Source: an uncultured Oscillospiraceae bacterium (GTDB lineage: Bacteria; Bacillota_A; Clostridia; Oscillospirales; Oscillospiraceae). From it: a DNA stretch of 5,797 nucleotides. The stretch spans positions 1 through 5,797 of the forward strand of contig CAAGIU010000365.1 in the NCBI GenBank assembly GCA_900770015.1. Direction: 5' to 3'. Position 1 is the first letter of the stretch, and the number at the start of each line of letters is the position of its first letter. Made by a program: the position numbers and the translations under genes. The notes beneath the pieces are model-generated. The model saw only the letters and a program-made list of their open reading frames with translations. It was not told where the DNA came from and did not search any database. Positions 3,730 through 5,767 of this stretch are shown here, piece by piece.

Positions 3730-4224
3730 ATGAAAAAAGTCGGTATTGTTATGGGCAGCGACAGCGATCTGCCCATCCTGCGCAAATCCATGGATATGCT
3801 GGATTCCCTGGGCATTCCCTACGAGGCCCACGTGTATTCCGCCCACCGTACCCCCGAGCAGGCCCGTGTGTTTGCCCTGGGCGCAAGAGAGAATGGCTTC
3901 GGTGCCATCATTGCAGCAGCCGGCATGGCTGCCCATCTGGCAGGTGCCATTGCAGCCAATACCACCCTTCCTGTCATCGGAATTCCCTGTAAGTCCACCA
4001 ATCTCGACGGCATTGACGCTCTTCTGTCAACAGTTATGATGCCCTCCGGCATTCCCGTAGCCACTGTTGCAATCGATGGAGCTGTTAATGCCGCTTTGTT
4101 AGCTGCGCAGATCATCGCCGTGTCCGATGAGGAGCTGGCTGCCAAGCTGGAGGCCAAGCGGGCCTCCGACGCTGCCAAGGTGCTCATGAAGGACGCCGCG
4201 CTGCAGGCGGAGCTGAACAAATAA
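3730..4224 (+). CDS. purE: N5-carboxyaminoimidazole ribonucleotide mutase, PurE class I
   Basis: PurE catalyses the sixth step of de novo purine synthesis, forming CAIR (4-carboxy-AIR) from N5-carboxy-AIR made by PurK. It is a soluble, normally octameric enzyme of about 160-170 residues, and this one has 164. Visible motifs are the phosphate-binding GSDSD (9-13), SAHRTP (37-42) with the catalytic His39, AAAGMAAHLAG (62-72), the IPCKST strand-loop (85-90), and MPSGIPVATVAI (104-115) followed by NAALLAAQI (120-128). The SAHRTP and GMAAHL blocks mark class I, not the AIR-carboxylating class II of animals and spirochaetes. Compared with E. coli PurE as I recall it, the loop after ATVAI is about two residues shorter. 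The start has AGGAGG at 3719-3724. It is the first gene after the attenuator; purK is not visible in the window. Confidence 0.96.
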   Translation: MKKVGIVMGSDSDLPILRKSMDMLDSLGIPYEAHVYSAHRTPEQARVFALGARENGFGAIIAAAGMAAHLAGAIAANTTLPVIGIPCKSTNLDGIDALLSTVMMPSGIPVATVAIDGAVNAALLAAQIIAVSDEELAAKLEAKRASDAAKVLMKDAALQAELNK

Positions 4225-4315: not shown

Positions 4316-4342
4316 AATCAAAACTCAAGGAGGAGTTTTATC

Positions 4343-5767
4343 ATGGGCGGTTTCTTTGGCGCCACATCCCGCCGCGACTGTGTTCTGGATGTGTTTTTCG
4401 GTACGGACTACCATTCCCACCTGGGCACCCGCCGGGGCGGCATGGCTGCATGGGATTGCGAGATCGGCATGCAGCGCGAAATCCACAACATCCAGAATTC
4501 TCCCTTCCGCACCAAGTTCGAGGGCATCCTGGATGAGATGAAGGGAACTGCCGCCATCGGCTGCATTTCCGACACCGATCCCCAGCCCATTCTGATCCGT
4601 TCCAAGCTGGGTGTTTACGCGATCTGCACTGTGGGCATCATCAACAATGCCGACGAGCTGATTCAGCAGTATCTGACCTTCAGCGGCGGACATTTCGAGA
4701 CCATGACCGGCGGCCGAATCAATGCCAACGAGCTGATTGCCGCCATGATCGACCAGAAGAGCTCCTTCGGCGAGGGTATCCGCTTTGCCCAGGAAATGAT
4801 TAAGGGCACCGCCTCCATCCTGATTCTGAAGGATGGCGGACACCTGATTGCCGCCCGGGACAAGATGGGCAGACTTCCCATCGTCATTGAGCGAAACGAT
4901 GACGGCTACTGCGTCACCTTCGAGGACTACGCCGGTGAGAAGCTGGGCTACGAGGTGGTCCGGGAGCTGGGCCCTGCAGAAATCGTGGAGATCTCTCCCG
5001 ACGGCATCCAGCAGCTGGCTGCTCCCGGCAAGGAAAAGAAAATCTGCGCCTTCCTCTGGTCCTACTACGGCTACCCCACCTCCTGCTACGAAGGACAGAA
5101 CGTGGAGGTGATGCGCTACCGCAACGGCCGCATCATGGCCAAGACCGACCGGGAAAACGGCGTCGCCCAGGACATCGACTATGTGGCCGGCGTTCCCGAT
5201 TCCGGCACCCCCCACGCCATCGGCTATGCCAACGAAAGCGGCATCCCCTTCGCCCGCCCCTTCATCAAGTATACCCCCACCTGGCCCCGGAGCTTCATGC
5301 CCGCCAACCAGAGCGAGCGGAACATGGTGGCCAAGATGAAGCAGATCCCTGTGGATGAGCTGATCCGGGACAAGAAGCTGCTGTTCGTGGACGACTCCGT
5401 GGTCCGCGGCACCCAGCTGCGGGAGACTGTCGAATTCCTCTATGAGCACGGCGCCAAGGATGTCCACATCCGCAGCGCCTGCCCGCCCATCCTCTACGGC
5501 TGCAAGTTCCTGAACTTCTCCCGCTCCAATTCGGAAAACGAGCTGATTGCCCGGGCCACCATCCTGGAGCTGGAAGGGGAGGAGGGTCTGAACCATCTGG
5601 ATGAGTACATGGACGGCTCCACCGAGCGCGGCCGGAAAATGCGCCAGGCCATCTGCGACAAGCTGCACTTTGCCTCCCTGGAGTACCAGTCCCTGGACGG
5701 CATCCTGGAGGCCATCGGCCTGCCCTGCGACCAGGTGTGCACCTACTGCTGGAACGGCAAGGGCTGA
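4343..5767 (+). CDS. purF: PurF-family phosphoribosyltransferase with degenerate glutaminase domain
   Basis: Canonical PurF (amidophosphoribosyltransferase) transfers glutamine-derived ammonia to PRPP, giving phosphoribosylamine, the first purine step. This 474-residue version has the usual length and two-domain order. The C-terminal half is conserved: VPDSG (284-288), and the PRPP loop FVDDSVVRGTQ (348-358). Four cysteines fall where Bacillus PurF binds its 4Fe-4S cluster: C235, C387, C466 and C469 (CTYC). The N-terminal half is recognisable (MGGFFG, then HLGTRRGGM at 26-34, GIINNADEL at 98-106), but the nucleophile Cys that should follow the initiator is Gly2, and the usual RYST and HNGN motifs are replaced. 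The start is fixed by AAGGAGGAG at 4327-4335; upstream in-frame codons run through the palindrome. It follows purE in the same direction, so a purine role is likely. It may use free ammonia, borrow a glutaminase, or be a PRPP-sensing paralog. The symbol marks family, not proven activity. Confidence 0.87.
   Translation: MGGFFGATSRRDCVLDVFFGTDYHSHLGTRRGGMAAWDCEIGMQREIHNIQNSPFRTKFEGILDEMKGTAAIGCISDTDPQPILIRSKLGVYAICTVGIINNADELIQQYLTFSGGHFETMTGGRINANELIAAMIDQKSSFGEGIRFAQEMIKGTASILILKDGGHLIAARDKMGRLPIVIERNDDGYCVTFEDYAGEKLGYEVVRELGPAEIVEISPDGIQQLAAPGKEKKICAFLWSYYGYPTSCYEGQNVEVMRYRNGRIMAKTDRENGVAQDIDYVAGVPDSGTPHAIGYANESGIPFARPFIKYTPTWPRSFMPANQSERNMVAKMKQIPVDELIRDKKLLFVDDSVVRGTQLRETVEFLYEHGAKDVHIRSACPPILYGCKFLNFSRSNSENELIARATILELEGEEGLNHLDEYMDGSTERGRKMRQAICDKLHFASLEYQSLDGILEAIGLPCDQVCTYCWNGKG

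Follow-up and report, generated by a model that had tools for sequence, protein, structure and literature searches.

Which reaction does a PurF-like protein carry out once its glutaminase site is lost? This question is raised by a gene (4343..5767, forward strand) in a stretch of 5,797 nucleotides from an uncultured Oscillospiraceae bacterium (contig CAAGIU010000365.1), hereafter called the window. The gene encodes a PurF-fold protein of 474 amino acids, termed PurF' here, which we analysed by translation of the open reading frame (ORF), family scan, alignment and structure prediction. Both in teaching and in metabolic models, the step that commits a cell to purine synthesis is treated as dependent on glutamine. 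We consider it fairly likely that PurF' is an ammonia-dependent 5-phosphoribosyl 1-pyrophosphate (PRPP) aminotransferase which replaces or duplicates canonical PurF in the purine operon.

Residues 1-230 (4343..5032, forward strand) correspond to the former N-terminal nucleophile (Ntn) glutaminase domain. We aligned 49 PurF' proteins, namely the window protein and those of 48 out of 51 loci, with 12 canonical PurF from related genomes; one frame running through a masked stretch (L035) and two fragments (L042, L043) were left out. The N-terminal Cys was present in all 12 canonical proteins but in none of the 49 PurF'. Canonical Cys1 aligns to Met1 of the window protein and Gly2 stands opposite a gap, so that the mature protein starts with Gly in both cases. 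Among 80 PurF' gathered, a set that omits L092, L093 and L094, which duplicate L120, L104 and L112, position 2 was Gly in 77, Ser in three (L014, L045, L103) and never Cys, which agrees with the replacement of Cys by Gly in MGGFFG described in the first-pass annotation. That annotation also listed the blocks carrying Arg73, Asn101-Gly102 and Asp127 as altered. This was true of most of them: five residues of the RYSTTG glutamine loop (R, Y, T, T, G; Arg73 block) were absent in 49/49, the oxyanion Asn was V, I or T in 49/49, and the Asp127 column, Asp in 12/12 canonical proteins, held no Asp in PurF' (Ala in the window), but the Gly of the Asn-Gly pair was retained in 44/49. A lone RYST string among PurF' occurs at a different site, residue 414 of L047. 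Moreover, HRGQE of canonical PurF was changed to HLGT, followed by R in 37/49, and the ARPDS block to GYPTS in the window protein, the deviating FARPDS-like block (WSYYGYPTS) noted earlier.

The phosphoribosyltransferase domain (residues 231-474; 5033..5764, forward strand) contains GVPDSG, DDSVVRGT and the cysteines C235, C387, C466 and C469. The PRPP loop DDS[IV]VRGT was found in 80/80 PurF', reading VDDSVVRGT in the window protein, the active-site columns K309, R316, Q323, R326 and K333 were conserved in 49/49, and GVPDSG in nearly all 49. C235 and C387 were present in 49/49, C466 and C469 in 48/49; the protein of L045, which lacks the last two, is cut short by its contig end. We take this four-cysteine pattern to be of the iron-sulfur (Fe-S) ligand type of Bacillus subtilis PurF. 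The loop and the four cysteines had been noted before in the window protein and hold across the family. Structure prediction gave the two-domain fold that characterises canonical PurF (the structure alignment covered the window and 31 loci, 32 sequences in all), whereas the score against the canonical PurF model TIGR01134 was 162.6 bits, below the cut-off of 350. Hence, PurF' shares with canonical PurF of B. subtilis (1ao0/1gph) and E. coli (1ecb) the PRPP loop, the phosphoribosyltransferase active-site columns, four Fe-S-type cysteines and a predicted two-domain fold, but lacks Cys1, the glutamine loop, the catalytic Asn and Asp and the ARPDS block. Alignment and structure prediction, two of the checks proposed in the first-pass annotation, bear out its description of a PurF-like enzyme without a glutaminase site.

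Furthermore, PurF' has residues of its own. H48, F55, R56, K58, F59, W239, Y310, W314, C380 and Y422 were specific to it and present in 48 or 49/49, and a KNRYVGRTF-like canonical stretch beside the active site was replaced by KYTPTWPRSF. The ratio of nonsynonymous to synonymous substitution rates (dN/dS) between the window gene and five relatives was 0.11-0.14 over the whole gene. In four of the five pairs it was higher in the N-domain than in the C-domain (0.15-0.17 vs 0.07-0.13), while the pair with L006 was reversed (0.11 and 0.14). Based on these values both domains are under purifying selection, mostly stronger in the C-domain. Residue 380 (window 5480-5482), Cys in 49/49 PurF' and Ser or Ala in 12/12 canonical proteins, lies seven residues N-terminal to the cluster-type Cys 387.

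Can PurF' stand in for canonical PurF? We surveyed two draws of genomes, one from a single family (60 genomes) and one from the class Clostridia (146 genomes), at a minimum completeness of 95, which is a filter on the draws and not backed by per-genome values. In the one-family draw 42 genomes had canonical PurF, 13 PurF' only and 5 neither; in the class draw the numbers were 115, 13 (G015 being in both draws) and 18, with PurF'-only and neither assigned by best E-value. A match to P0001 was found in 23/23 PurF'-only genomes searched vs 0/23 genomes with neither; G015 and G017 hold the loci L018 and L020. purM exceeded its cut-off in 25/25 PurF'-only genomes vs 0/23 with neither (p 3e-14, kinship ignored), three of the latter showing weak matches, and purD, scored in the one-family draw only, in 13/13 vs 0/5. 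Therefore, in these samples the purine pathway occurs without canonical PurF only where PurF' is present. Incomplete genomes hiding a canonical PurF are an unlikely explanation, given the completeness filter and the clear split in purM. As a separate observation, glmS exceeded its cut-off in 5/13 PurF'-only, 31/42 canonical and 5/5 neither-genomes of the one-family draw (Fisher p 0.04, PurF'-only vs canonical). Missing glmS was not used as a sign of an ammonia lifestyle because the signal is weak and confounded by kinship; PurF'-only cells without glmS may make glucosamine-6-phosphate another way.

The gene neighbourhood also links PurF' to purine synthesis. purM was the next labelled gene after PurF' in 42/51 loci, a count that disregards short unlabelled ORFs in between, and 38 of these 42 had purE in the locus. 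PurF' and purM are merged by a masked stretch in L035, and in L043 and L045 a contig edge follows PurF', with purE upstream. The operon of L018 comprises purE, PurF', purM, purN, a PurO-like inosine monophosphate (IMP) cyclohydrolase (47.6-56.5 bits, under cut-off), a stand-alone 5-aminoimidazole-4-carboxamide ribonucleotide (AICAR) formyltransferase, purD and purL. In G055 (L095) the position between purE and purM is taken by canonical purF, and G038 (L086) carries PurF' and canonical purF as a tandem pair. A ZTP riboswitch (RF01750) preceded purE in 6/7 PurF' loci scanned (L003, L004, L007, L016, L018 and L023, not L013) and likewise in L086; none was detected in L095, and no riboswitch was found in the window, including upstream of its purE. 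In a family scan of the L018 operon proteins the only glutaminase domain was PurL's own; for the other operons the analysis covered labels against the same set of pur genes. The GICNGFQ motif of PurL was intact in L018, L028 and L004. Because PurL keeps this motif, cells with these operons are predicted to go on using glutamine further along the pathway, at least one step on. The last purine step is split in L018 (13167-15081) and in many of L001-L051, with the PurO-like protein and AICAR formyltransferase in place of fused PurH.

Replacement of Cys1 in E. coli PurF does not abolish the use of ammonia, as cited from Mei and Zalkin 1989 in PMC3261824. Because of this behaviour, a glutaminase-less PurF with a PRPP site would be expected to make 5-phosphoribosylamine (PRA) from ammonia. 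PurF' very probably catalyses PRA synthesis, and if it does, free ammonia is the likely source of nitrogen rather than a partner glutaminase. PurF' would join PRPP and free ammonia to PRA, which would be handed to PurD. In genomes with PurF' alone, purine synthesis would begin at PurF' on ammonia. In genomes with both proteins, the pair may resemble the asparagine synthetases, of which ammonia-using and glutamine-using types exist. Beta-lactam synthetase (1jgt), also among the nearest known systems, differs from PurF' in its AsnB-type synthetase domain and its unrelated product. A good many genomes showed no enzyme of this type besides PurF', and for this reason the bacteria concerned probably start purines from free ammonia. 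It is quite possible, though somewhat less likely than not, that a clade of gut Clostridia starts purines without glutamine, that PurF' took over the operon position of PurF as an aminotransferase dedicated to PRPP and ammonia, and that the dead glutaminase domain has been refitted, with H48, R56, K58 and F59 as new conserved residues, for the capture, channelling or sensing of ammonium.

Of the three options named in the first-pass annotation, free ammonia, a partner glutaminase and a redox or PRPP sensor, PRA synthesis from free ammonia fits best, as PurF' sits in the purF slot and 25 genomes with purM show no other PurF candidate. PurF' could also make PRA with ammonia supplied by a separate glutaminase subunit or another amidotransferase, for example canonical PurF in tandem genomes. 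The conserved Ntn-like domain could serve as a docking or tunnel scaffold and PurF' adjoins canonical purF in L086, but canonical PurF over cut-off is missing from the PurF'-only genomes and the L018 operon encodes no glutaminase domain other than that of PurL, although no genome-wide search for orphan glutaminases was made. Together with the behaviour of the Cys1 mutant, the result for the L018 operon favours the ammonia-dependent reading, and we regard a partner glutaminase as unlikely. A non-catalytic regulator sensing PRPP, redox state or purines would agree with a divergent family that has lost an active site, keeps Fe-S-type cysteines and in part co-occurs with canonical PurF. However, the PRPP loop is kept in 80/80 and the 25 PurF'-only genomes with purM would be left without a known enzyme for the first step, which makes a mere sensor very improbable.

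We assign an equally low probability to a phosphoribosyltransferase for another acceptor, with PRA arising by some other route in genomes without canonical PurF. The residues specific to PurF' (H48, R56, K58, F59, W239, Y310, W314, C380, Y422) and the KYTPTWPRSF stretch beside the active site might point to a changed acceptor, but the purine-operon slot is shared and exchanged with canonical purF, a ZTP riboswitch precedes several PurF' operons, and the five active-site columns are invariant. Finally, hydrolysis of glutamine through a different nucleophile is most improbable of all. C380 is invariant in PurF' and three proteins carry Ser at position 2, yet position 2 is otherwise Gly and the glutamine loop, Asn and Asp are lost throughout. 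Cys13, suggested earlier as a possible substitute, was rejected because its column holds Cys in only 30/49 PurF' (V in 9, A in 6).

Several observations weigh against ammonia-dependent replacement of PurF, and we found no biochemistry for the PurF' clade. Canonical PurF was also carried by 14/27 PurF' genomes of the one-family draw, as read from the rows. The 35 genomes holding fetched loci included 12 with canonical PurF over cut-off, and the nearest relatives of the window (G001-G004, G006 and G007) have canonical purF as well, with a 278-bit fragment in G005; these relatives thus hold the second, Cys-bearing purF that the first-pass annotation proposed to look for in the genome of the window. 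In 20 further locus genomes without canonical PurF over cut-off, which were not filtered for completeness, purM exceeded its cut-off in 17 (not in G031, G032 and G033) and purD in 19 (not in G026). Moreover, six of the 51 loci (L041, L046-L049, L051) had no labelled pur gene around PurF'. The former glutaminase domain is under purifying selection with conserved residues of its own, which would be unneeded if it were purely vestigial. G032 and G033, the two Bacteroidota genomes checked, keep a long Cys-bearing PurF beside PurF'. Because its nearest relatives carry canonical purF elsewhere, PurF' in the window's organism may be a second, ammonia-using isozyme and need not be the only route. In G003 and G004 the canonical purF (L087 and L088) lies near carB (1475 and 1471 bits), away from the PurF' operon.

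The long PurF was examined in the Bacteroidota family of G033, where the TIGR01134 cut-off was passed in 0/26 genomes. Read from the rows, 22 of these 26 genomes gave weak matches to a PurF of ~630 amino acids and 17 had a PurF'-like match; six of the latter were fetched and all begin with M[GS]G. The long protein of L089 (1616-3493; 625 amino acids, 127 bits vs TIGR01134) has an intact HECG, as does that of L090 (3661-4930), which is cut by the contig end. Like PurF' they are divergent, below the TIGR01134 cut-off and present in the same genomes G032 and G033, but they are much longer and keep HECG with the Cys nucleophile. Calls based on TIGR01134 miss this ~630-residue PurF, which scores far under the cut-off. 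In Bacteroidota, where PurF' is not the sole candidate, its role is less certain.

Similar proteins have been described in archaea. Brown et al. 2011 (PMC3261824) described a crenarchaeal PurF' without N-terminal Cys near purine genes and suggested an ammonia-dependent PRPP aminotransferase. The bacterial PurF' is likewise PurF-like, lacks the N-terminal Cys and is linked to pur genes, a likeness judged against the published description. A normal PurF accompanies it in every crenarchaeon of that study, and likewise in the nearest relatives of the window, whereas PurF' stands alone in 25 of our sampled genomes. The archaeal suggestion of 2011 is now directly testable, since PurF' has been found without a normal PurF beside it. 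By title and start of abstract, none of the open-licence literature matches listed dealt with such a PurF' from bacteria. Named homologs among the sequence matches listed were called amidophosphoribosyltransferase. New here are the occurrence of PurF' on its own and the exchange of purF in place. If the ammonia-dependent reading is true, many gut and rumen bacteria would route their nitrogen differently, need other metabolic models and differ in how sensitive they are to glutamine analogues.

Homologs of PurF' at E<=1e-3 numbered at least 8000 (8000/8000 candidates scored). In a maximum-likelihood tree of 99 rows, calculated in quick mode, 79/79 PurF' fell on one side of a branch with a Shimodaira-Hasegawa-like approximate likelihood ratio test (SH-aLRT) value of 100 and a long stem (4.74); L045 was left out and L083 had no canonical row. 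The clade occurs in Clostridia and Bacteroidota, L046 and L048 apparently coming from Prevotellaceae. This confirms the earlier expectation that divergent PurF proteins are common in gut Clostridia and extends it to a second phylum. To judge from the alignments, many gut bacteria have a PurF relative predicted to lack glutaminase activity.

Misplaced starts that hide the Cys were a problem encountered in archaea by Brown et al. 2011 (PMC3261824). For the window gene we rejected a Cys hidden upstream: a TTG-started frame from 4274 adds no Cys, and the ribosome-binding site AAGGAGG (4327..4333, forward strand), 9 bases from the ATG, supports the MGGFFG start. A pseudogene was also rejected, based on the low dN/dS and on frames that are open in relatives. 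purE (3730..4224, forward strand; TIGR01162, 191.2 bits at a cut-off of 149.6) ends 118 bases before PurF' on the same strand, an order that is the same in relatives. Upstream of purE lie a QueT-family gene and an ATP-binding cassette (ABC) transporter ATPase gene truncated by the window start. PurF' is the last gene of the window, with 30 bases remaining 3' of it, and in the near relatives L001 and L002 it is followed by purM.
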